A DNA stretch of 64,000 bases from Nitrospiraceae bacterium (GTDB lineage: Bacteria > Nitrospirota > Nitrospiria > Nitrospirales > Nitrospiraceae). The position numbers and the translations under genes were made by a program. Below, piece after piece: positions 25,351 to 36,306 of this stretch. The stretch covers positions 1 through 64,000 of the forward strand of contig JAHBWI010000007.1 in the NCBI GenBank assembly GCA_019637075.1. Reading direction: 5' to 3'. The notes beneath the pieces were generated by a model that saw nothing but the letters and a program-made list of their open reading frames with translations, had not been told where the DNA came from and ran no database searches. Position 1 is the stretch's first letter. Every line of letters starts with the position of its first letter.

Positions 25351-25875
25351 TTAGTGCTTGTGGCTTTCCCCGTGCTTCCCAGCCATGAGTGGCTGCTTAA
25401 GAATCCACATCTCGTGCAACGGGATCCACATCATGATCAGGAACGACACCATCATCAGCGTATCGCCAGTCAGCATCGTGATGACGAAAACGGGAGACAC
25501 GTAACTGATCAGCCAGGGGGAGAGGAGATCCAATCCCACGCCGCCAAATGCCAACCATGTCGTCCATACTTTCGTGGCATGGCTCGCATTCGTGAGGTAG
25601 AGGACGTGGACAAGAATCATAAACACCACCGGCATCGTAAACAGATGAAAGTGGGTGACCTCCGCCAATTCTCGGAACGACATGGGTTCGCCGAAGGTGG
25701 CATCCGACCCACGGTAGTGATCGGCAATGCCTTGCGGCGAGAGGCCCGTCATGCTGTGTGCCCAGAAAAATGAAAAGAGGAATCCCGTGAGCATCAGCCC
25801 AAGAAAAATCGTATAGAGCAATCGGATGTGACGGTCCGAATCTCGGAGTCGAAAGCGGCTGTTGAAGTTGCGCAT
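25351..25875 (-). CDS. Four-helix His-rich membrane protein, possible b-type cytochrome
   Basis: This 174-residue protein has four predicted membrane helices. Histidines lie inside or at the edges of them: FFWAHSM near the end of helix 1, THFHLFTMPVVFMILVHVL across helix 2, and IPLHEMW near the end of helix 4. This pattern could bind haem, but no named family is recognised with confidence. It is the last gene of a minus-strand run containing an FMN-binding protein, lipoprotein and porin, and ends before a strong terminator. Moving electrons from quinol to the periplasmic flavoprotein is an inference. Confidence 0.75.
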   Translation of the reverse strand: MRNFNSRFRLRDSDRHIRLLYTIFLGLMLTGFLFSFFWAHSMTGLSPQGIADHYRGSDATFGEPMSFRELAEVTHFHLFTMPVVFMILVHVLYLTNASHATKVWTTWLAFGGVGLDLLSPWLISYVSPVFVITMLTGDTLMMVSFLIMMWIPLHEMWILKQPLMAGKHGESHKH

Positions 25876-25896
25876 AGCCGGAGTACGGGCCGTGGC

Positions 25897-26574
25897 CTAG
25901 TTGCCGAAAATGGATTTGAAGAAGCCTTTGTCCGTCTTGCGCGCCGTCATGGTATCGCTGCCCTGTCCTGCCGGCTTGAGATAAAACTCGTCGACAAGCA
26001 CCAGCACGCGCTTAATGCCTGCGCTCATCGAGCGAACGGACATCGTCGCGCCGCTGATGTTGATAATGTCCTTGTTGATCCTAATCGGATCTAGGACGGA
26101 CTTGCCTTCGTATTGAGAATTGAACCGCTTCTGCCGCACCTCGCTGCCGCGCGCTTCCCGAAAGATCAGCAACTCGATATCCGATACCTTGCCCTGTTGG
26201 TCGACCCCGACCATGTAAGTCATCGGTTTATGTTTACCGATGGTGTTATGTACCATCGCATACCCGTCGATTTGTGTGCCGGTCTCGCCGATGTAAATTT
26301 CAAAGGACTCTTCCGGGAATTTCCAGCCGATTCGCTCTTCGATCTGTGCTTTCTTTTCAGGAGTGAGACGAATTTGTTCCTTCCTCACTCGCTCGGATTT
26401 TGGAAGAATGACCCTGAGCCCTTCCTCCTCGGTCATGAAGACCTCTGCCATGGTCATTTCCTGATCCGTCAGATAGCGTTTCAGTTCACTGTCCCATATC
26501 CGCTCGCTGCGGGCTAAGGTGGGGAGGAGAGCAACGGATAGTATGACACTGGACAGTAGGACGACGAACTTCAT
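25897..26574 (-). CDS. Periplasmic FMN-binding protein (covalent flavin site SGAT)
   Basis: This 225-residue protein has a signal peptide (MKFVVLLSSVILSVALLP, cleavage near residue 23) and a C-terminal FMN-binding domain of the RnfG/NqrC type. Its INISGATMS motif is the site where ApbE attaches FMN through a phosphoester bond, predicted at T177. The apbE gene lies nearby at 29039. The ATG overlaps the preceding lipoprotein stop as ATGA, and that overlap decides the start. It is likely a one-electron carrier in the periplasm; its partner may be the membrane protein encoded next. Confidence 0.88.
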   Translation of the reverse strand: MKFVVLLSSVILSVALLPTLARSERIWDSELKRYLTDQEMTMAEVFMTEEEGLRVILPKSERVRKEQIRLTPEKKAQIEERIGWKFPEESFEIYIGETGTQIDGYAMVHNTIGKHKPMTYMVGVDQQGKVSDIELLIFREARGSEVRQKRFNSQYEGKSVLDPIRINKDIINISGATMSVRSMSAGIKRVLVLVDEFYLKPAGQGSDTMTARKTDKGFFKSIFGN

Positions 26575-27029
26575 GTTGTTGCACAGCCTTTCTCTCGCAG
26601 CTTCGTTGTGAGCCGAGTGGAAATATCTTGCAGCACCTCTTCCGACGGTTCGATCGGCCACCATTTTGTGGCTTGCGACGTCACACCACCCCTGGCGTGC
26701 CAGCGTTGACGGATCTCGGTAACGTTGACCGAGGCGACATCCTTGTCGTGCGTGACCGTAGCAGTTAACTGTGCCCGCTCACGGTTGCCGAATCCTTCAC
26801 GCCCGAAGATGCCGAACGACCGCTCTTTGCCTTCCATCTCGATCCAGGCTGTTTCGATTACACCCTTTTCCTTGTTTTGGGTCGTAATCGAGTAGCCTTT
26901 TAGGACATCGACCGTGGCTTCCCATGTGGTGTCGTATGAGCAGACAGATGTGTGTGCGTGGCTGCCGTTCATGCTTGCACAGCCAGTGATCAGCAAGCAT
27001 AGGATGGCGGTCAAGGCAGAGGATTTCAC
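26571..27029 (-). CDS. Lipoprotein of unknown function
   Basis: From the GTG at 27029 this is a 152-residue protein with a lipoprotein signal peptide ending LCLLITGCAS, so it should be anchored by the Cys. The mature part (YDTTWEATVDVLKGYSI and KGVIETAWIEMEGK) loosely resembles BamC/NlpB-like or similar small outer-membrane lipoproteins, but this was not verified. An upstream ATG at 27077 would add 16 polar residues and spoil the signal peptide. It overlaps the FMN-binding protein gene. Confidence 0.75.
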   Translation of the reverse strand: MKSSALTAILCLLITGCASMNGSHAHTSVCSYDTTWEATVDVLKGYSITTQNKEKGVIETAWIEMEGKERSFGIFGREGFGNRERAQLTATVTHDKDVASVNVTEIRQRWHARGGVTSQATKWWPIEPSEEVLQDISTRLTTKLREKGCATT

Positions 27030-27092
27030 GTGCAAGAGATTCCTTTCGGGCGGCGGATTGTCCGAATGTTCAGACAATCCGCCGCATGCGGC

Positions 27093-28592
27093 TTAAAAAT
27101 ACGTCGCAGCAGAGATTACAAACGCGCTGTCATGAATCCGTCTCTCCGTGTTGGAATTAAAGGACTTGGGCATATACTGATAGCTGACCTTGAACACGGC
27201 GTCTTCCACCGGACGGTAGTTCAAGCCAAACGAAATTTGCTCCAATTCCCCTTGGTTTTCACCGCGGTTGTCCATGTTCAAGTTAACTCTGTCGTATCTG
27301 ACGACCGCCGTGAACGTCGCGCCTTCCCCAAATCGCTTGGGAGAGAGTGCCGTCAGGAATGCAGGCATAAAGTGGTAGTTCCCTTGGATATAGAAGCCCT
27401 GCATACGTTGTGGGGGAGCCGCCAGGGTATTGAACGTATTCACCCCGGTGAGGAGTGAGCCCACAGGATTTGTGGCGCCGCCAGGAACGGGAATCTGCCG
27501 AGAATTCCCGCGAGCATAGGCCCAAGCCGCTTCTCCGATGACTTCGAACGGACCCTTTTGGAGCGTCCAGTCGACCGCCATGATGCTGAGAGGATTGTAG
27601 CTGTAGGGCGAGGCGTTGCCGAAGTATCCGGAGCCTGCGACCTCAATGCCCAACATGGGACTGAACGCCATACGGCCGGACACGGCCTTGCCGTTGTTGA
27701 TATCTAACCCGTCAGCGGAAGCGCATTTACGCTGTCGTGAACCTCGAGTTCCGTCTTCTTCGCGGATCCGTGGCGTGCCGTCTGCGTTGTATCCGCAGGG
27801 CCCGGTTGTGACATAGAACTCGTAGTCCAACTTGCTGGTCCGGCCCGGGTAGACCGTACCGTAGAAGCCTGCGCCGGTTTCGGCCATTGTGGAAGGAATC
27901 ACAAGACGGCTGACAAGTGGGCGATCGGTTAAATCGTTCAACGGTGAATCATGCAACAGGTTGAACTTTCCGATCGGGATGAGCAGGATGCCCGCCCGAA
28001 GATTGAAAGGTTCTTTCACAAGGTAGTCGATATGGGCGAATTCGAGCCCGATTTCCGCACCCTGTGTCGCATCTTCTCGAATGCCGTGCTCGATTTCCAA
28101 TTCGGCTGCGAACTTCACATGCTCAGTGACGTCAGCATAAATGAATGGCACAAAGCGTTGCTGGTCAAACCCGTTGGTGGTACCGCGCTTCACACCGTTG
28201 GCTTCGTATCCGGACTCAAGAACGCCGTTTCGGTGCGAGCGAAATTGGATATCCATATAGCCGCCGACAATAGCCTTTGGTGCCGATACGAAAGGCTTTG
28301 CGTACACAAGACGGCCTGAGCCAGTTGATCCGAAGGAAAGAGCAGGCTGGGATTCGGCACGACGTTCTCGGCCGACCTCAGGCAGAGAACCGATGCCAGG
28401 CTCGTTGATCTGTCCTGCTGAGGTGTCGCGGCGTTCCATGGCGCCTTCATGACGTTCGTGTTCCTGGAGTCGCTTTTCCACTGCTTCATCGACCATTTTC
28501 TTGATGTCTTCCGGGGTCATATCAACAGCCATAGCCGGCAAAACCGGTAAGCTAGCGAAGACGAGAGCCCCGAGGATTGACCGCACCCTCAT
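27093..28592 (-). CDS. Outer-membrane porin-like beta-barrel protein
   Basis: This 499-residue protein has a signal peptide (ending near PAMAVD), a short predicted coiled coil (MTPEDIKKMVDEAVEKRLQ) and a long beta-rich region. The barrel part has alternating hydrophobic strands such as VKFAAELEIEH and NLRAGILLIPIG, and it ends in aromatic Phe (ISAATYF), the usual barrel-insertion signal. The coiled coil followed by a barrel recalls OprP/OprO-like porins. GGAGG precedes the ATG. It is in the same direction and probably the same operon as the Com-like gene upstream and the lipoprotein downstream. Its substrate is not known. Confidence 0.8.
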   Translation of the reverse strand: MRVRSILGALVFASLPVLPAMAVDMTPEDIKKMVDEAVEKRLQEHERHEGAMERRDTSAGQINEPGIGSLPEVGRERRAESQPALSFGSTGSGRLVYAKPFVSAPKAIVGGYMDIQFRSHRNGVLESGYEANGVKRGTTNGFDQQRFVPFIYADVTEHVKFAAELEIEHGIREDATQGAEIGLEFAHIDYLVKEPFNLRAGILLIPIGKFNLLHDSPLNDLTDRPLVSRLVIPSTMAETGAGFYGTVYPGRTSKLDYEFYVTTGPCGYNADGTPRIREEDGTRGSRQRKCASADGLDINNGKAVSGRMAFSPMLGIEVAGSGYFGNASPYSYNPLSIMAVDWTLQKGPFEVIGEAAWAYARGNSRQIPVPGGATNPVGSLLTGVNTFNTLAAPPQRMQGFYIQGNYHFMPAFLTALSPKRFGEGATFTAVVRYDRVNLNMDNRGENQGELEQISFGLNYRPVEDAVFKVSYQYMPKSFNSNTERRIHDSAFVISAATYF

Positions 28593-28731
28593 TGGAAACC
28601 TCCGTGAACTGTATAGTGGTGATGGTCTGACTCGGGACTCGATGGTCTCTGGCCTGTATAGGATGTGCTGCAAGAGTATGGACAAGCTGTCGAGGATGTA
28701 CTGAGCGAGATACCTCCTTCCATGATAGAGG

Positions 28732-28908
28732 TCATGATGCAACCGTGCTCCACCCTTCAATGGACGCGAAAGGGATGAGGACAATGCGCTTACAGCGTTT
28801 GCATTTCAGTTCCAGACCCCCGCCGCGGACCTTGGCGATGAGCTGCCCGCATTCACAGCGGGTTTCGGCGTTGGAGCCAGATTCGATGGGAGAGCTTGTG
28901 GATGCCAT
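28732..28908 (-). CDS. Com-like small zinc-finger protein
   Basis: This 58-residue protein has the Com-family pattern CECGQLIAKV followed by LELKCKRCKRIVLIPF, giving two pairs of cysteines for zinc. In phage Mu, Com is a translational activator; bacterial relatives are mostly uncharacterised. AGAGGAG precedes the ATG. The gene is first after a Fur-box-like site and heads the direction of the porin/FMN-binding operon, 139 bases before the porin. This could make it a regulator of that operon, but no direct evidence exists. Confidence 0.75.
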   Translation of the reverse strand: MASTSSPIESGSNAETRCECGQLIAKVRGGGLELKCKRCKRIVLIPFASIEGWSTVAS

Positions 28909-28937
28909 TTCGCGAACGGCTCCTCTCAAATGAAATT

Positions 28938-28956
28938 GAGAACGATTATTAATATC
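28938..28956. promoter_or_regulatory. fur box: Fur-box-like site between divergent zinc-finger and apbE genes
   Basis: GAGAAC-GATTAT-T-AATATC matches 14 of 19 positions of the classical Fur consensus by direct comparison. An adjoining perfect inverted repeat, TCTCAA-N6-TTGAGA (28924-28941), overlaps it. It sits about 30 bases before the Com-like gene and about 85 before apbE, so it could control both directions. Confidence 0.7.
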
Positions 28957-29026
28957 TCGCAACCGAGGGAGAAGTCAACCCCCTCTGCTTGCTGCCTGGC
29001 CAGTGTCATTCGGCCCAGGCGGTCTC

Positions 29027-29032
29027 TATAAT
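29027..29032 (+). promoter_or_regulatory. Consensus -10 box placing the apbE transcript start at its ATG
   Basis: TATAAT at 29027-29032 lies seven bases before the ATG of apbE. A transcript starting at the normal distance would begin at or next to the start codon, giving a leaderless mRNA. The -35 region is weak. Confidence 0.4.
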
Positions 29033-29038
29033 GGAATC

Positions 29039-30103
29039 ATGCGGCTACCTGACCCGGTGCTCGTTGCTTCCCGACTTTTCGACTGGCGCAGGCTCTTGCT
29101 CGTCATTGTGGTCTTTGGCGCGCTGCACGGGTGTGCAGGAGTGGGCGGAGGGGGGGATCCAGTAGTTCTGAAGCGGGCCCAGTTGCATATGGGTACCGTC
29201 GTGTCTATCACGGCGGTGGCTGCTCGTCGCGAAACTGCCCAAGAGGCGACTCAGGCGGGTTTTCAAGAAATCAGGCGCTTGGAGCAGCTCCTCAGTACCT
29301 GGCGTCCAGATAGCGAGCTTTCGCAGGTCAATGCTTCTGCCGGTAGACGGCCGGTTCGTGTGAGCCAGGAGACGTTCGAGTTGGTGTCCCGATCATTGGA
29401 TTTCGCGCGGATGACCGGGGGAGGATTTAATATTGCCGTGGGCCCGGCTGTTGAGGCGTGGAGTGTCACCGAACGGCAGCAAATCCCAACTGTTCAAGAG
29501 TTAGAGCGATTGCATCCGCTAGTAGATTGGCGAGCTATTCAGCTGGATGAGGGGGAGCGTACGATTTTTTTGCCGCATTTCGGAATGCGCATCGATATCG
29601 GGGGGATAGGAAAAGGGTACGCGGCGGACCGTGCCGCTGAGGTGATGCAACAGGCTGGTGCTCAGGGAGGAGTGGTCGCGCTGTCCGGAGATATTAAGAC
29701 GTTCGGGAGTCTTCCAGAGCAGGCGGGTTTTTCTGTTGGAATTCGGCATCCCCGACGCGAGGGCGTCCTGCTTGCCAGGATCAATCTCAAGAATGAAGCA
29801 ATTTCAACCGCCGGTGACTACGAGCGGTACTTTGAACGAGACGGCATTCGCTACCATCACATCCTCGATCCCTTAACTCTCCAACCGGCTTGGGACTGTC
29901 AGAGCGTGACCGTTGTGGCTTCGGATGGGATCACTGCCGATGGGCTTGATACGGGCTTATTCGTGATGGGGCGGGAACGCGCCATGGCATTGATTGAGAG
30001 TCTGCCCGGTGTCGGCGCAATCATCGTCGATCGGGATGGAAAAGTTTGGGTCTCCTCGCGTTTACAGGGCAGAGTTCAAATGGGGGAGGCAACGCTGGAA
30101 TAG
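29039..30103 (+). CDS. apbE: FAD:protein FMN transferase ApbE
   Basis: This 354-residue lipoprotein (lipobox LHGCAG) uses FAD and Mg to attach FMN covalently to Ser/Thr in SGAT-type motifs of exported proteins. Family motifs are HMGTVVSITAV, GGIGKGYAADRAAE, VVALSGDIKTFG and the AISTAGDYERYF...HHILDPLT region, which holds flavin- and metal-binding residues. The likely client is the FMN-binding protein at 25897-26574, divergent across the Fur-box-like site. The start is ATG 29039, close to a TATAAT. A longer frame from 29003 would put a stretch before the signal peptide. Confidence 0.93.
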   Translation: MRLPDPVLVASRLFDWRRLLLVIVVFGALHGCAGVGGGGDPVVLKRAQLHMGTVVSITAVAARRETAQEATQAGFQEIRRLEQLLSTWRPDSELSQVNASAGRRPVRVSQETFELVSRSLDFARMTGGGFNIAVGPAVEAWSVTERQQIPTVQELERLHPLVDWRAIQLDEGERTIFLPHFGMRIDIGGIGKGYAADRAAEVMQQAGAQGGVVALSGDIKTFGSLPEQAGFSVGIRHPRREGVLLARINLKNEAISTAGDYERYFERDGIRYHHILDPLTLQPAWDCQSVTVVASDGITADGLDTGLFVMGRERAMALIESLPGVGAIIVDRDGKVWVSSRLQGRVQMGEATLE

Positions 30104-30126: not shown

Positions 30127-31086
30127 CTAACGACCCAATGTATAACTGAGGGGAATGTGGATTGTTACGCGCTCTCGCCCAAGCTGCTGGGTCAGTACAA
30201 AGGGGGCCGCTTGCCGCACCGCCTCTAGGGCCGCCTGGTCGAGAATGTCATGTCCTGAGCTTTTTGCAATGTCAGATGAAGCAAGTTGACCATCAGCCAG
30301 AATTACCGCTCGAACAACCACACGACCTTCCAATTTCTCAATTCTTGCTGCGGCTGGGTAACGCTTAAAGGGTTCGATGCGCTGCAGGATTGATCCTGCT
30401 AGCCAACCCAAATCCGGTTTCCGCGTCGGCGGTGCCTGCACCGTAGGAGGTGCGACGGCTGCTACGCTGGTAGCTGGCGGCTCAGATTCTGGCGGTGCTG
30501 TGGCTGATTGTGCCGGAGGGGTATTGGGCGTCGGCGGTGCGGCCGTCTCTTCCCGCACGGGAGTTGGGGGCTGCGGTTCACTAAGTGACGGCTGGGGATG
30601 GAGAGTGCTTTCTACGTCTTGCTTGGGGGGCTCGGGGACGCCTGTGGATTGTGGTGCGGCCACAGCGGCCGATTCTGATCGGAAAGGTTCGACGTGAGGG
30701 GGTGGTGCTGGTGCCAGGTCGGCGGATTCGATGGGCCTGGGCGGATCGGCACTGACCGCATCCCGAGAGGAAGGCCGCTGCGCAGAAGCAACCGGAGGGC
30801 CGGTCGGTCGGGCTGGCATCGGGATCTCTTTCCTCGCTGATGGCTTGGGCCGCGTCGCAGCGGGGACGGCGGGGGTGCTTGAGGCTGAAGTCGAAGCGGG
30901 CGCCTCGGGAGGGTGCACCACAGCCACGTTCCACTGGAAGGGCGTGGTGCTAGGCGCCAGTGTTACTTTTGCCAGAAATGATGTGGCCAGAAACAGAGCG
31001 AAGCCGTGTATGCAAGCAGAAATGATCCAGCCACTCAGTCGCAGGTGGGCAAACTCCCTGTTCCCAACGACTGGCTGATCAGTCAC
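30127..31086 (-). CDS. tonB: TonB-family energy transducer
   Basis: This 319-residue protein has a single N-terminal membrane anchor (about residues 18-40), a long Pro/Ala-rich periplasmic spacer (about residues 55-220) and a C-terminal TonB domain (about residues 230-319; RVVVRAVILADGQLASSDI, LDQAALEAVRQAAPF, VTIHIPLSYTL). It passes proton-motive energy from ExbBD to TonB-dependent receptors. No such receptor gene lies in this window. The ATG overlaps the exbD stop as ATGA. Confidence 0.92.
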   Translation of the reverse strand: MTDQPVVGNREFAHLRLSGWIISACIHGFALFLATSFLAKVTLAPSTTPFQWNVAVVHPPEAPASTSASSTPAVPAATRPKPSARKEIPMPARPTGPPVASAQRPSSRDAVSADPPRPIESADLAPAPPPHVEPFRSESAAVAAPQSTGVPEPPKQDVESTLHPQPSLSEPQPPTPVREETAAPPTPNTPPAQSATAPPESEPPATSVAAVAPPTVQAPPTRKPDLGWLAGSILQRIEPFKRYPAAARIEKLEGRVVVRAVILADGQLASSDIAKSSGHDILDQAALEAVRQAAPFVLTQQLGRERVTIHIPLSYTLGR

Positions 31087-31457
31087 AAGCGAACGACCTC
31101 CAAGCTGACCGACTGGAAGCCCAGGCCCCTCACTTCATCAACCACCGCCACAAATCGTTCCAGCAACGTGACCTTGTCGGCGCGGACGACCACGAGCGAT
31201 TCACGAGGTTGCGAGGTCAAAGCCGCCTTTAACCCATCGGCGGGAATCGCCTGATCATTCAAGAAGAGATTTCCTTCCGAGGTCAGGGTGATGACGACGG
31301 GGACGTCTTTATGGTCGCCGACTTCCTTGGCCTTAGCCAGATTGACAGGGATTTGCCCAGTACTGATGAACGTTGCAGTCGTCAGTACGATGACCAGGAG
31401 CACCAGCATGACGTCGACGAGAGGGATGACGTTGATCTGATTAACTTCTCGTTCCAT
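31083..31457 (-). CDS. exbD: ExbD/TolR-type biopolymer transport protein
   Basis: This 124-residue protein has one membrane helix with the functional Asp in VIPLVDVMLVLLVIVLTTATF, then a small periplasmic domain (VITLTSEGNLFLNDQAIPADGL). With ExbB it forms the proton-conducting motor that energises TonB. The N-terminus is encoded within the end of exbB (17-base overlap), and tonB follows with a four-base overlap. Confidence 0.94.
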   Translation of the reverse strand: MEREVNQINVIPLVDVMLVLLVIVLTTATFISTGQIPVNLAKAKEVGDHKDVPVVITLTSEGNLFLNDQAIPADGLKAALTSQPRESLVVVRADKVTLLERFVAVVDEVRGLGFQSVSLEVVRL

Positions 31458-31872
31458 GCTGCACCTTATAGAGAGATAAGAGTTCAGCGACGCGGCGACG
31501 CAGGATGTTGTTCATCACAACGCAGGGAATCGCAACCAACAGTCCGACCGCCGTTGCCTTGAGGGCAAGGCTCAGGCCGATCATAATCGTGTTGACGGCC
31601 ATTGTGCCGGAGGTGCCCATCGTGTGGAAGGTCAACATAATGCCCAATACAGTGCCAAGCAGGCCGATATAGGGGGCATTGGCGGCGACGGTACCAATGA
31701 TCACGAGACGTTTAGTGAGGGCAATCTCAAAAACCTGAACATCGGAGAACTGGGCGGGATCTACCTTACGATAGTACAACCAACGCTCAACAGCTACTGC
31801 CAGGCACCATACACTTAAGGACAGCAGGAGACCGATAATTCCATAATCCACGGCGTGCTTCAACGCGTCCAT
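31441..31872 (-). CDS. exbB: ExbB/TolQ-type motor protein (short form)
   Basis: This 143-residue protein belongs to the MotA/TolQ/ExbB family. It has an N-terminal helix (YGIIGLLLSLSVWCLAVAVE), then VAANAPYIGLLGTVLGIMLTFHTMG and the conserved C-terminal helix ALKATAVGLLVAIPCVVMNN. It is shorter than E. coli ExbB because the large cytoplasmic loop is reduced. AAAAGGAGTG precedes the ATG. It opens the exbB-exbD-tonB operon, and a TGAGAAC half-site lies about 85 bases upstream. Confidence 0.93.
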   Translation of the reverse strand: MDALKHAVDYGIIGLLLSLSVWCLAVAVERWLYYRKVDPAQFSDVQVFEIALTKRLVIIGTVAANAPYIGLLGTVLGIMLTFHTMGTSGTMAVNTIMIGLSLALKATAVGLLVAIPCVVMNNILRRRVAELLSLYKVQHGTRS

Positions 31873-31992: not shown

Positions 31993-33135
31993 TCAGGTGT
32001 TCTGCGCCGACCTTTGCGCAAAGAGGACCGTATGGGTGGCGACCACGCGGAGTTCTACGGCCGTGCCCACCTGATAGACGCTCGTTGAGGGTTCGCTGCT
32101 ATGCACTATTTGCCCAGACGGTAGGCGAATGGTGTAAAGGTTTTCTGAGCCCTTGAATTGCCGGGAGAGTACGCGCGCTTCGGCCCCCTTTGTGGGGACG
32201 ACGTGAATGTCGTCCGGGCGGATCATTACCACCACATGGGTGCCGTTCTCCAGGCTGAGAGTATTAGGAAATGAGCCTAACTCGGTGGCGACCATTCCAT
32301 GGGTCACGACTCCGGAAATGAAATCGGCTTGTCCCACAAAGTCGGCGACGAACGGCGTTGCGGGCATGTGATAAATGGCTTCAGGCGCATCGAACTGCTC
32401 AAGCCGGCCGTTGTTGAGCACCGCGATGCGGTCGGCCATCGCGAACGCCTCGTCGTGGCCGTGGGTGACCAAGATTGTGGTGGTCTTTGTCCGACGGAGC
32501 AGTTCATGCAGATCATGGCGCATTCGACTCGCCATATCGGGATCCAGGTTGCTGAACGGTTCGTCCAGCAGCAATACGATCGGCTGTTGGGCCAGCGCCC
32601 TTGCGAGTGCGACGCGTTGTTGTTGGCCGCCAGAGAGTTCATGCGGATAGCGCCGGTCCAAGCCGGAGAGTCCAGTCAATTTGAGGAGATCCTCGACCAC
32701 GCCGCGGCGTTGATGTTTGGATAAATGCCGTAGGCCGAAGGCAATATTCTGTTCGACCCGCAGGTGCGGGAAGAGTGCATATTCTTGGAAGACCATTCCG
32801 ACCCGGCGCTGTTCCGTTGGCACCAGAAAGTCTGGGCTGGACACGAGTTGGCCTGAGAGTGTGATGGCGCCGGCGGTTACGCGTTCAAAGCCGGCGATGG
32901 CTCTAAGAATGGTGGTCTTGCCACAGCCGGATGGTCCGAGCAGGCAGAGAATTTCCCCTTCTTGCGCACTGAAGCTAATCCCTTCTACGGCTGGCCTGGA
33001 TGGCTCATAGGCGCAGGACACACTTCTAAGATCCAGCACCGGTGGCGACGTGGGCATTGAATCGCCCGCTGAGGGCGCCGATTGGCCCGCTGAATGTTGC
33101 CCGTTGTCCTCGTCAGGACCCACTACGCAATTCAC
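31993..33135 (-). CDS. fbpC: Ferric iron ABC transporter ATP-binding protein
   Basis: This 380-residue ATPase has Walker A LLGPSGCGKTT, Q-loop VGMVFQEYALFPHLRVEQN, signature LSGGQQQRVALARAL, Walker B VLLLDEPFSNLD and the switch His in TILVTHGHDEAFAMAD. A C-terminal TOBE-like domain (about residues 300-370) fits the FbpC/PotA group. The GTG start has GAGAGGA seven bases upstream; an ATG 26 codons later would also leave the ATPase intact. It is the last gene of the fbpA-fbpB-fbpC operon, next to fur. Confidence 0.92.
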   Translation of the reverse strand: MNCVVGPDEDNGQHSAGQSAPSAGDSMPTSPPVLDLRSVSCAYEPSRPAVEGISFSAQEGEILCLLGPSGCGKTTILRAIAGFERVTAGAITLSGQLVSSPDFLVPTEQRRVGMVFQEYALFPHLRVEQNIAFGLRHLSKHQRRGVVEDLLKLTGLSGLDRRYPHELSGGQQQRVALARALAQQPIVLLLDEPFSNLDPDMASRMRHDLHELLRRTKTTTILVTHGHDEAFAMADRIAVLNNGRLEQFDAPEAIYHMPATPFVADFVGQADFISGVVTHGMVATELGSFPNTLSLENGTHVVVMIRPDDIHVVPTKGAEARVLSRQFKGSENLYTIRLPSGQIVHSSEPSTSVYQVGTAVELRVVATHTVLFAQRSAQNT

Positions 33136-33147
33136 GGCAATGTCCTC

Positions 33148-34734
33148 TCAGGCAGCACGCCAGTCCTTTGATACCAACATCAAGAGGGCTGGCAGGCTGA
33201 GTATGACGATCAGCAGAGCCGAGGGAGCGGCCAACTGGTAATACTCCTCACTAGCTTCGAGCCAAACCCGAATGGCCAACGTATCGAAACCGACGGGACG
33301 CAATAACAGGGTCGCCGGAAGTTCTTTCATCGTCTGAAGGAACATGAGCACCCAGGCCGCGACGAAGCCATTCCGAATCAGGGGGAGTGTCACACGGCGC
33401 AAGATCTGTCGCGTCGTGCAGCCAAGAGTCCTCGCCACTTCTTCGATATTCGGTGTGACCTGTTGCAGGGCTGGTTCAAGCGACTGCAGGCCGGCCGGTA
33501 AGAAGTGTAGGACGTAGGCCACGACCAAGACCACCATTGAACCATACAAGAACGGGGCAAGGCTTGTGAAGAGGACCAGGACGGCCAAGGCGGCCACGGG
33601 ACCCGGCAACGCGTACCCGGCATAGGCAGCTTGTAGGCAGGCCAGGTTGATGCGACTGGGACGCCGGCTGGCGAGATAAGCCAACGGGAGGCCTAGTATG
33701 ACGGCGCTGGTTGCAGCCAAGCAGGCGAGGAAGCCGCTATTCCAAACGAACCCATAAAACCGTGCATCCAATACTCCCTGCGACACTGCAGCGACGCTCC
33801 ATTTGATCAGCATGAAAGCTGGGACGCCGAATGATGCGGCGAATACCAAGCCGACGAACATGGTCAAGAGCGTTACACCGATTGGGCCGCGATCTTGTCG
33901 GACGGGCGTTCGGTAACGGCCGGCTGTTTGATAGAATCGACTGCGCTGTCGAAACCATCGCTCTGTCACGAGAAACAATAAGGCCAGGGCAACCAGCAGC
34001 ACGCTCAGCACACTTGCGGCGGTATGATCATACCGGCTGGTCATTTGCTGGTACACCGCATAGGTCAATGTTTGATAGCGGAGCAGCGAGACGGCCCCAA
34101 AGTCTGAGACCACGTACAGAATGACCAAGGCCAATCCGGCGGCGATGGCGGGTCGAATCAGCGGGAGCGTCACCCGCCAGAGTGTGGCCCATGGAGAGAC
34201 ACCGCAGACCCGGGCGACCTCCTCGAACGAGACGTTCAAGCTGAGCAAGGCTCCACGGGCAAGAAGGTACACAAAGGGAAACGTATCCAGGGCCATTACG
34301 AGGCTGACCCCAGAGAAGCTGGTGGGGGACAAAAGTAGACCGGCCGGCGCACCGATCGACTGCCACCACTCGTCGATGGGCCCGCCCATTCCGAGAAGGT
34401 GCGCGTAGACGTAGGCCAGCACATAAGTCGGCATGGCCAGTGGCAGCACCAGCACCCATTCCCAGATCCGTCGCCCAGGGAACTCATAGCGCACCACGAC
34501 CCAGGCCAGCGAGACGCCAAGCGCGAGTGTCAGCAGGGAAACACTAGTGGCGAGGGACACCGTGTTCCAGAGCAACTCGGGGATTCGAGTAGCCCAGAGA
34601 CGCTTCCACACGGCGGGGCTGGCCGTTGCAGCCAGAAAGGTAACGTAGGCTAACGGAAGCACCAGCAATGTGGTGGTGGCCAGGCTAAACCACTGTAGCG
34701 GTGACAGGATGAACTGGCGAACCGAGGTGACCAT
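33148..34734 (-). CDS. fbpB: Ferric iron ABC transporter permease (fused two-domain)
   Basis: This 528-residue membrane protein has about twelve helices in two homologous halves, each with an EAA loop (EVARVCGVSPWATLWRVTLPLIRPAI and the later EVARTLGCTTRQILRRVTLPLIRNG). This is the FbpB/CysW-type fused permease arrangement. With FbpA and FbpC it imports Fe3+ across the inner membrane. It lies 15 bases after fbpA and 12 before fbpC. Confidence 0.93.
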   Translation of the reverse strand: MVTSVRQFILSPLQWFSLATTTLLVLPLAYVTFLAATASPAVWKRLWATRIPELLWNTVSLATSVSLLTLALGVSLAWVVVRYEFPGRRIWEWVLVLPLAMPTYVLAYVYAHLLGMGGPIDEWWQSIGAPAGLLLSPTSFSGVSLVMALDTFPFVYLLARGALLSLNVSFEEVARVCGVSPWATLWRVTLPLIRPAIAAGLALVILYVVSDFGAVSLLRYQTLTYAVYQQMTSRYDHTAASVLSVLLVALALLFLVTERWFRQRSRFYQTAGRYRTPVRQDRGPIGVTLLTMFVGLVFAASFGVPAFMLIKWSVAAVSQGVLDARFYGFVWNSGFLACLAATSAVILGLPLAYLASRRPSRINLACLQAAYAGYALPGPVAALAVLVLFTSLAPFLYGSMVVLVVAYVLHFLPAGLQSLEPALQQVTPNIEEVARTLGCTTRQILRRVTLPLIRNGFVAAWVLMFLQTMKELPATLLLRPVGFDTLAIRVWLEASEEYYQLAAPSALLIVILSLPALLMLVSKDWRAA

Positions 34735-34749
34735 GGGGCTTCAATGCTG

Positions 34750-35775
34750 CTAGCGCAGCCCCACTTGTTCGATGAGTGTGAGCGTCGGTTCACGAAGTTC
34801 GGCCAGGCGGGCCAGCGGAACTAAGGCCGCGCGGAACGAGTGCCGGTCGACTAACGCGGGATCGGCTTTCACTTCCGGATGCAGTGGGTACTCCTTGTCC
34901 AGATCCGCAAACAGTTTCTGGCCCGCTTGCGCCACCAGAAATTCGACTAGCACCTTGGCGGCCTCGACGTGTTTGGACGTGCGGGTCACACCGATACCCG
35001 CGACGTTCATGATCGCTCCCATTCCCCCTTCTTGTTGATCCGGCATAAGGGCCGCGATGGGGGCGTCCGGTTGCGCGGCAAGGTGACGGTAAATGTAGTA
35101 GTGATTCACGATGCCGACCGCCGCTTGTCCCTTGGCGACCGCCTCTACGATCTGGCTGCTCTTTTGATAGACCTGGTTGCCTGCATTGACCTTGAGGCCC
35201 TGAAGAAACTGTTTGGTCTTATCATCGCCATATGTCGCCTTGATGACCGAGACTCCCGCCTGAAGATATTCGCTGCCGGAATTGGGAATCGCGATCTTGT
35301 CCTTCCACTGTGGGTTCGCCAAGTCGAGGAGCGACTTAATCTGGTCCGGTGTGACGAGCTTACTGTTGTAAACGACGATCCAGAACCTGCCCGAGAGTCC
35401 GATCCAACTGTTGTCGGCGGCACGGAATTGCGGGGGTATTGCTCGGTCGACTTCCCTCATATTGAGCGGTCTCAGAAGCTTCAACTCGCGGGCATGTTCG
35501 AGACTGCCGGCATCGTTTGTGATGAACACGTCGGCCGGGGTACGGTCCCCTTCGGCTTGGAGCCGGTTTACCAACTCGGTCGTGCCGGAAGACAACAACT
35601 CCACTTGGATGCCGCTCTTGGCTTGGAATTCGTCGAGCACCGGTTTTATTAAGCGTTCGGCACGGCCCGAATACACTACCAGCTTGTCCGCTGCTTGGGC
35701 GTCCGGGGACAGGGCTGACAAGCACAGGGACATAACCAGGCACACCCACGCCGACATCATGCGGGCCGACACCAT
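34750..35775 (-). CDS. fbpA: Periplasmic ferric iron-binding protein
   Basis: This 341-residue solute-binding protein has a signal peptide (ending near DAQAADK) and FbpA/transferrin-like features: LVVYSGRAERLIKPVLDEF, SGTTELVNRLQAEG and VNHYYIYRHL. The adjacent tyrosines of the last motif are iron ligands in FbpA proteins. GGAGG eight bases before ATG 35775 decides the start, although the frame extends 15 codons further. A Fur-like site at 35821-35849 precedes it and the fur gene is the next neighbour, so Fur repression is likely. Confidence 0.93.
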   Translation of the reverse strand: MVSARMMSAWVCLVMSLCLSALSPDAQAADKLVVYSGRAERLIKPVLDEFQAKSGIQVELLSSGTTELVNRLQAEGDRTPADVFITNDAGSLEHARELKLLRPLNMREVDRAIPPQFRAADNSWIGLSGRFWIVVYNSKLVTPDQIKSLLDLANPQWKDKIAIPNSGSEYLQAGVSVIKATYGDDKTKQFLQGLKVNAGNQVYQKSSQIVEAVAKGQAAVGIVNHYYIYRHLAAQPDAPIAALMPDQQEGGMGAIMNVAGIGVTRTSKHVEAAKVLVEFLVAQAGQKLFADLDKEYPLHPEVKADPALVDRHSFRAALVPLARLAELREPTLTLIEQVGLR

Positions 35776-35820
35776 GAGACGCACCTCCTGAGATAGAGAG
35801 CTAGAAGCGAGAAATGGCAA

Positions 35821-35849
35821 GATAATTGAAATTGATAACCCGTCTCAAT
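35821..35849. promoter_or_regulatory. Fur-like operator before fbpA
   Basis: GATAAT at 35821-35826 and TTGATAAC at 35832-35839 are hexamer-like Fur elements, and ATTGA/TCAAT (35831-35835 and 35845-35849) form an inverted repeat. GATAAT-TGAAAT-T-GATAAC matches 12 of 19 consensus positions. It lies upstream of fbpA and downstream of fur. Confidence 0.55.
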
Positions 35850-35874: not shown

Positions 35875-36306
35875 TCAATGGCGGCAGTGCACGCAGAGGC
35901 CGTAGAGCTCAAGCCGGTGCGTTTGGATGACGAACCCATTCTTGGTCGCCACTTCCTCCTGGAGCCGCTCGATTTCGCAATTTTCGAACTCCACAATCTT
36001 TCCGCAGCCCGTACAGATCAGGTGATCATGGTGTCCCTTATGGGAGACGTTGTCGTACTGGGTTTGCGAACCGAAATGTCGTGCCTGCGCGATGCCTGCC
36101 TCGCAAAAGAGATTCAGTGTGCGATAGATGGTCGCCAGGCCGAGATGCGGGTCCTTTTTCGCGAGCTGGTGGTACATCGTCTCGGCGGTGACGTGTTCCT
36201 GGCGAAGGAAAGCCGTCAGGATGAGTTCTCGTTGGCGGGTCAGCTTCAACTGATGCTTCGCCAGGTGCTGGCGGAGGGCATCCATTTCTTTGTCAGTTTT
36301 TCTCAT
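35875..36306 (-). CDS. fur: Fur-family metal-dependent repressor
   Basis: This 143-residue protein has an N-terminal winged helix (LTRQRELILTAFLRQEHVTAE, ATIYRTLNLFCEAGI). The C-terminal metal-binding and dimer domain carries HHDHLICTGCGK and CVHC, so both structural zinc CxxC pairs are present. Its position beside fbpABC and near Fur-like sites makes iron regulation the best reading, though Zur and PerR are related. The ATG has no strong ribosome site visible. Confidence 0.92.
   Translation of the reverse strand: MRKTDKEMDALRQHLAKHQLKLTRQRELILTAFLRQEHVTAETMYHQLAKKDPHLGLATIYRTLNLFCEAGIAQARHFGSQTQYDNVSHKGHHDHLICTGCGKIVEFENCEIERLQEEVATKNGFVIQTHRLELYGLCVHCRH

Follow-up and report, generated by a model that had tools for sequence, protein, structure and literature searches.

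What does a short run of genes in a Nitrospira-type genome do, in which a porin and a flavin-binding protein are encoded next to a small membrane protein of no recognised family? The locus lies in a 64 kb stretch of DNA (the window, in what follows). Five genes on its minus strand, coding for a com-like zinc ribbon, a porin, a small lipoprotein, a flavin mononucleotide (FMN)-binding protein with an FMN_bind domain and a four-helix inner-membrane protein (M4), diverge from apbE, with a match to the Fur box between them. A first-pass annotation, made from the DNA alone, had read this set as an iron-controlled module for electron transfer outside the cytoplasm. Wherever sequence could test that interpretation, it was favoured and supported. 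We regard the locus as a putative module that Fur would repress and iron starvation release, and that would pass electrons to ferric iron in the periplasm, with a probability of roughly 0.58 for this reading as a whole. Each gene of the proposed cluster proved to be an open reading frame:

28732..28908, minus strand: com-like zinc ribbon, 58 residues, first minus-strand gene; four cysteines (CxC...CxxC) and a weak match to phage Com
27093..28592, minus strand: porin of the Porin_O_P family; predicted N-terminal helix and 16-strand barrel
26571..27077, minus strand: small lipoprotein; lipobox LITGC, no family match, found order-wide
25897..26574, minus strand: periplasmic FMN_bind protein, 225 residues; Sec-type signal, motif DIINISGATMS (T177), RnfG-like domain
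25351..25875, minus strand: M4, four-helix inner-membrane protein, 174 residues; H75, H77 and H90 invariant among Nitrospirales
29039..30103, plus strand: apbE, FAD:protein FMN transferase; lipoprotein-type signal, the longest reading frame beginning at GTG 29003

By inspection, the likely starts are ATG 28592 for the porin, ATG 29039 for apbE and a GTG near 27029 for the lipoprotein. Families were called with Pfam and NCBIfam at curated cut-offs. The scan for relatives kept the best 80 of 151, all Nitrospira-type by their titles (one or two are labelled Nitrosospira), and comparisons of presence and absence cover 61 genomes.

The genes are kept and lost together

M4 was found in 47 of the 61 genomes, and FMN_bind proteins are present in the same 47 and absent from the same 14, with no discordant case (Fisher p = 4e-14). 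The presence of ApbE agrees with that of M4 in 51/61 (p = 6e-5), and many of the exceptions are incomplete genomes. In the Nitrospirales loci that we read, the genes for M4, the FMN protein and the lipoprotein are contiguous, and com and apbE accompany them in most cases; the porin gene is directly upstream in nearly all loci, whereas in L023 and L027 it flanks M4 on the far side. Ca. N. defluvii is among the carriers of the set (L072). Frequent neighbours are fbpABC, tonB, exbBD, fur and ferritin-like genes. Independent scattering of the components in relatives, which had been named as a sign against a functional module, was not seen for the porin, lipoprotein, FMN and M4 genes.

A complete, single-contig genome (G032) lacks M4, FMN_bind and ApbE altogether. 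What is left at the syntenic place is topA, a ferritin-like gene, com (its Fur box scoring 14/19), fur and a di-haem gene reduced to a broken fragment, and the porin, lipoprotein, FMN protein, M4, apbE and exbBD are gone; this joint loss resembles the removal of one functional unit. Chance clustering of the genes was ruled out by the order-wide synteny and the identical patterns of presence and absence. We conclude that the minus-strand set is one evolutionary unit, and comparison makes this unit, together with the client pairing and the Fur site described below, highly probable. In five relatives (L028, L036, L038, L042 and L047) an extra lipoprotein gene of ~210 residues, which the window lacks, is found between com and apbE, in the direction of apbE.

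ApbE and its predicted FMN-binding client

Enzymes of the ApbE family attach FMN to the threonine of [ST]GAT motifs outside the cytoplasm. The FMN protein has a clear FMN_bind domain (PF04205, 33.5 bits; cut-off 22), a signal peptide judged by inspection and a [ST]GATMS motif kept in 37/37 of its relatives; its SGAT spans residues 174-177, which places the predicted flavinylation site at T177, as first proposed. ApbE itself is recognised with ease (PF02424, 281.7 bits; cut-off 25.6), with the motifs GGIGKGYAAD, HHILDP and ADGLDT all present and a hydrophobic N-terminus of the lipoprotein type (FGALHGC, by inspection). The genome of the window has a single FMN_bind gene and a single ApbE gene, both in this locus, so this FMN protein is the sole FMN_bind client on offer to the enzyme.

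The pairing of ApbE with this client is supported most strongly by gene fusions next to M4. In seven loci of the same class (L169-L174 and L176), the ApbE protein carries the FMN domain at its C-terminus, and the fused gene adjoins that of M4; in L175, the corresponding reading frame ends at the contig edge. The fusions have a twin-arginine motif (e.g., SRRRFLK) between the two domains. A clear signal peptide is missing from their ApbE part, which would therefore be cytoplasmic (in L170 its beginning is somewhat hydrophobic); flavinylation may thus precede export by the twin-arginine (Tat) pathway in these proteins, instead of taking place in the periplasm. As a candidate internal translation start at the Tat signal, an ATG, GTG or TTG codon occurs two codons ahead of the arginine pair in 6/8 sequences, but clear ribosome-binding sites were not seen there. 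The fusions in relatives, the presence of one enzyme and one FMN_bind protein in the genome of the window and the concerted loss of both in G032 all agree with the earlier suggestion that the FMN protein is the client of ApbE, and argue strongly for the predicted pairing.

A conserved Fur box upstream of com

28938..28956, no strand assigned: Fur-box-like site GAGAACGATTATTAATATC, 15/19 to the E. coli consensus, with a second overlapping register at 28932

The site between com and apbE had been reported at 14/19; it is present, and its score is here corrected to 15/19. It is the top Fur-box match of the window, in which two sites of at least 14/19 were seen versus 0.15 expected, and no score of 15 or above arose when the intergenic region was shuffled 500 times. 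Among relatives, 25/25 have a site of at least 13/19 no more than 150 bases upstream of com, versus 2% of random windows, and in 22 of these 25 it outranks every other site in the 10-16 kb locus. Such sites are rare or never found upstream of apbE, M4, exbB and tonB in relatives. More distant operons of the module have sites of 14-18/19 nearby in most loci (L172, L173, L177, L178, L179, L169 and others), and no site of 14/19 was found near the module operon of L170. A chance origin of the box was ruled out by the shuffles, the rate in random windows and the conservation in relatives. With a predicted box at the promoter, its retention in relatives and a Fur protein encoded, the module qualifies as a predicted member of the Fur regulon. 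The persistence of the box across the phylum upholds the Fur link drawn in the first-pass annotation, for which the sequence evidence is strong. Overlapping weaker Fur-box-like matches (12-13/19) lie between fbpA and fur (window positions 35821-35846).

M4 as a candidate membrane electron carrier

M4, the lipoprotein and the zinc ribbon have no Pfam or NCBIfam match at cut-off. M4 and 21 relatives, compared with the NapH, MsrQ, PepSY, DsbD, NQR/RNF and DUF4405 families, gave no match in Pfam, nor did the proteins tested in NCBIfam. The AlphaFold model of M4 has four long helices (pLDDT 76, pTM 0.71), and a fold search with this model against the PDB gave no match below 0.001. The nearest named relatives come from Nitrospira genomes; used as a query on plasmids, M4 gave chance matches only and same-class M4 none.

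Within the membrane helices, the only invariant histidines are those of helix 2 (75, 77 and 90). H75 and H77 are also invariant in a wide alignment of 22 sequences that includes kin fused to a CxxCH motif, whereas the fused proteins lack H90, which unfused M4 retains. By the positive-inside rule, the N-terminus of M4 would be cytoplasmic; helix 2 would then have H75 and H77 close to its periplasmic end and H90 close to its cytoplasmic end. The CxxCH insert of the fused kin sits in the helix 1-2 loop, in keeping with a periplasmic location of that loop. M4 is homologous to these proteins (hhalign 98.6%). In L186, the gene of one such protein accompanies those for cytochrome b, Rieske and cytochrome c, and in L183 that of another is beside NiFe hydrogenase genes. 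That the set is an electron-transfer module, as had been proposed, is thus favoured by the covalent-FMN motif and by the kinship of M4 with a cytochrome-c-fused subunit of a cytochrome b/Rieske operon. The L186 operon (L186:6073-9089) encodes a cytochrome b with a fused c-type domain, a Rieske protein, the CxxCH M4-like subunit and a cytochrome c, i.e., an unusual bc-type complex in Nitrospirota.

M4 does not show the haem b pattern of PepSY, MsrQ and DUF4405 proteins, i.e., conserved histidine pairs from different helices. Its identification as a DUF4405/b561 protein was rejected, being unsupported by sequence or profile; a forced alignment is misleading if taken alone. M4 could instead be an assembly or metal-binding partner that carries no electrons, the FMN protein being reduced from elsewhere: H53, H75, H77 and D116, near the predicted periplasmic face, could bind a metal, and unfused M4 matches no haem-protein family. 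We consider this role unlikely, given the homology of M4 to the c-haem subunit and the presence of unrelated four-histidine cytochrome-like proteins in the same slot of proteobacterial sets. M4 is thus a likely membrane electron carrier, which probably does the job of the cytochrome in such sets yet stands outside those families. More tentatively, and with rather less than even confidence, we propose that it represents a new class of transmembrane electron carriers, specific to the Fur-controlled flavin module in Nitrospirota and with distant kin in the c-haem subunit encoded beside cytochrome b and Rieske; on this reading, the FMN domain of the ApbE fusions in same-class relatives would be flavinylated in the cytoplasm before Tat export.

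The porin and the other envelope components

The porin matches Porin_O_P (25.6 bits; cut-off 20.9), and its model, with 16 strands and an N-terminal helix, has PorB, OprP, OprO and DcaP as closest folds. It would thus be a diffusion channel, not an electron conduit. The porin and FMN genes are neighbours throughout the phylum, and likewise in the proteobacterial counterparts, as would be expected if the FMN protein plugged the porin to form a conduit for extracellular electron transfer, similar to MtrCAB with flavin in the place of haem. The barrels of decahaem conduits have about 26 strands, however, whereas the nearest folds here are small diffusion porins, and one FMN is too short to span the outer membrane; we find such a conduit very improbable.

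The lipoprotein gene was not found in the same-class loci. The four cysteines of the zinc ribbon (CxC...CxxC) are invariant in distant relatives, and com is kept beside the porin across the phylum. The resemblance of this protein to phage Com is weak (PHROG 6417, E = 6e-4), with no Pfam match over cut-off.

Ferric iron as the favoured acceptor

The linked neighbours of the module in the window are:

30127..31872, minus strand: tonB, exbD and exbB (Pfam matches TonB_C, ExbD and MotA_ExbB)
31993..35820, minus strand: fbpC, fbpB and fbpA, an ABC importer of the ferric-iron type
35875..36306, minus strand: fur (PF01475, E = 3e-35)

Pfam searches of the window identify FUR, the FbpABC-type ABC transporter and two ferritin-like genes. 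The linkage to iron genes described in the first-pass annotation therefore stands as regards tonB, exbBD, fbpABC, fur and the ferritin-like genes nearby, although FbpABC is not tied to the module, since each occurs alone. Across the phylum, the linked iron genes differ while the module persists: fbpBC or fbpABC and fur form one run with it in L172, L173 and L176, FTR1, a cupredoxin and fur are found in L169, FeoB in L180, and ferritin and fur beside the module in L178. FTR1-type and FeoB systems import ferrous iron, and their presence thus favours a reductase role.

We propose the following mechanism. Iron scarcity would lift the repression of the module by Fur, and ApbE would attach FMN to T177 of the FMN protein outside the cytoplasm. 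M4 would draw electrons from the quinol pool or the cytoplasmic side and pass them across the inner membrane, probably by means of haem on its conserved histidines, to the covalent FMN. Ferric iron or a ferric chelate entering via the porin would be reduced by the FMN protein, and the freed iron could be taken up by FbpABC here and by FTR1 or FeoB in relatives. Within this scheme, we hold iron to be the acceptor with somewhat better than even confidence.

Several observations weigh against the scheme. The module is present without fbpA in four genomes (G001, G022, G057 and the incomplete G048), and fbpA without the module in 10. FbpABC is classed as a ferric importer, with no need of its own for Fe(II). 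M4 lacks the two-helix bis-histidine pattern of known flavinylation cytochromes. Finally, G036 has M4 and the FMN protein without ApbE, and the 5' end of its porin gene is also missing; com is absent too from this locus (L025), which may reflect a deletion or an assembly join. FTR1 was not found among the relatives, save for one partial match, and FeoB gave no strong match there, in a FeoB_N search confounded by other GTPases. G001, G022 and G057 have the module with neither FbpA nor an FTR1 match.

The same Fur-controlled redox module might use an acceptor other than iron, with M4 and the FMN protein feeding a periplasmic enzyme, e.g., a di-haem peroxidase, as an iron-sparing substitute for transfer by cytochromes. 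A gene for a MauG/CCP-like di-haem lipoprotein lies downstream of M4 in 12 of the 47 carriers (L032:5667-7592, L027:10142-11899, L043:4899-6734 and nine more) and is intact nowhere else among the 61 genomes. A CCP_MauG gene also flanks the similar proteobacterial set in Ideonella, and the use of flavin in place of haem at low iron has been discussed (PMC8238504). Yet the di-haem gene is found neither in the genome of the window nor in 35/47 carriers, and the module stays while the linked iron importers vary, which makes this alternative improbable. Less probable again is a role in taking up some other nutrient or metal, e.g., copper or an organic chelate, in which Fur would be one input. Porin_O_P is named after phosphate/pyrophosphate channels, cupredoxin (L169) and multicopper oxidase (L189) genes adjoin in some relatives, and MauG-like proteins are also known from copper uptake loci. 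Against this stand the conserved Fur boxes and the recurrence of fur, FbpABC, FTR1, FeoB and ferritin genes near the module, and electron transfer to ferric iron remains the reading that we prefer.

Nitrospira comprise major nitrite oxidisers and complete ammonia oxidisers and have a heavy demand for iron. The module may provide them with a concrete, testable route of iron capture, in a group whose searched relatives have no FTR1 beyond one partial match and no clear FeoB. M4 adds a candidate class of membrane electron carriers to flavin-based periplasmic redox systems, and the gene fusions pair ApbE with its client.

Comparison with known systems

In our literature searches, no paper was found that describes this gene set for Nitrospira by name or links a Nitrospira FMN-binding protein to ApbE or iron uptake. 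The FMN protein shares with RnfG/NqrC the FMN_bind fold with its covalent-FMN motif, but it scores 22.2 bits against rnfG (cut-off 102), and no rnf or nqr genes occur at the locus. The part of the account that we consulted on psp of Geobacter and Desulfuromonas, a porin gene with Fur boxes and a proposed role in iron transport (Rodionov 2004, PMC545781), describes a PF07396-like porin under predicted Fur control, as here, but no flavin partner.

Flavinylated systems and DUF4405/FezC cytochromes have previously been tied to iron reduction (PMC8238504, PMC11334425). Like M4, the DUF4405/FezC cytochromes (Huang et al. 2024, PMC11334425) are small membrane proteins tied to flavinylation or iron redox, and the binding of haem via dimerisation, modelled there for FezC, is possible for M4 as well. 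In contrast, M4 has no sequence match to DUF4405, no profile match to the DUF4405/b561-like proteins of the proteobacterial sets, and invariant membrane histidines in helix 2 only. Those sets, on plasmids of Ideonella, Methylocystis and Novosphingobium, encode a barrel, an FMN_bind protein, ApbE and, as the fourth product, a four-helix protein in which four histidines are invariant. At the loci read (L187:3225-7612, L188:3876-6731 and L189:3111-6634), they fill four matching functional slots in the same order, but with other barrel families and with a four-histidine b561/DUF4405-like membrane protein that is unrelated to M4 by profile. A cytochrome c peroxidase gene accompanies the set in Ideonella, and multicopper oxidase and ferritin-like genes that in Methylocystis.

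The closest general precedent is provided by the flavinylation clusters of Meheust et al. 2021 (PMC8238504), which combine FMN_bind and ApbE with a membrane carrier of the NapH, MsrQ, PepSY, DsbD or NQR/RNF type. The locus resembles them in its extracytosolic ApbE, [ST]GAT FMN_bind client, clustered membrane protein and link to iron genes. It differs in that M4 falls outside the five carrier classes and in that the set of the window adds a porin, a zinc ribbon, a lipoprotein and a Fur box directly in front. The general kind, i.e., flavinylated electron transfer and a Fur-regulated porin, is thus already known, whereas this gene set and M4 appear to be new to it.

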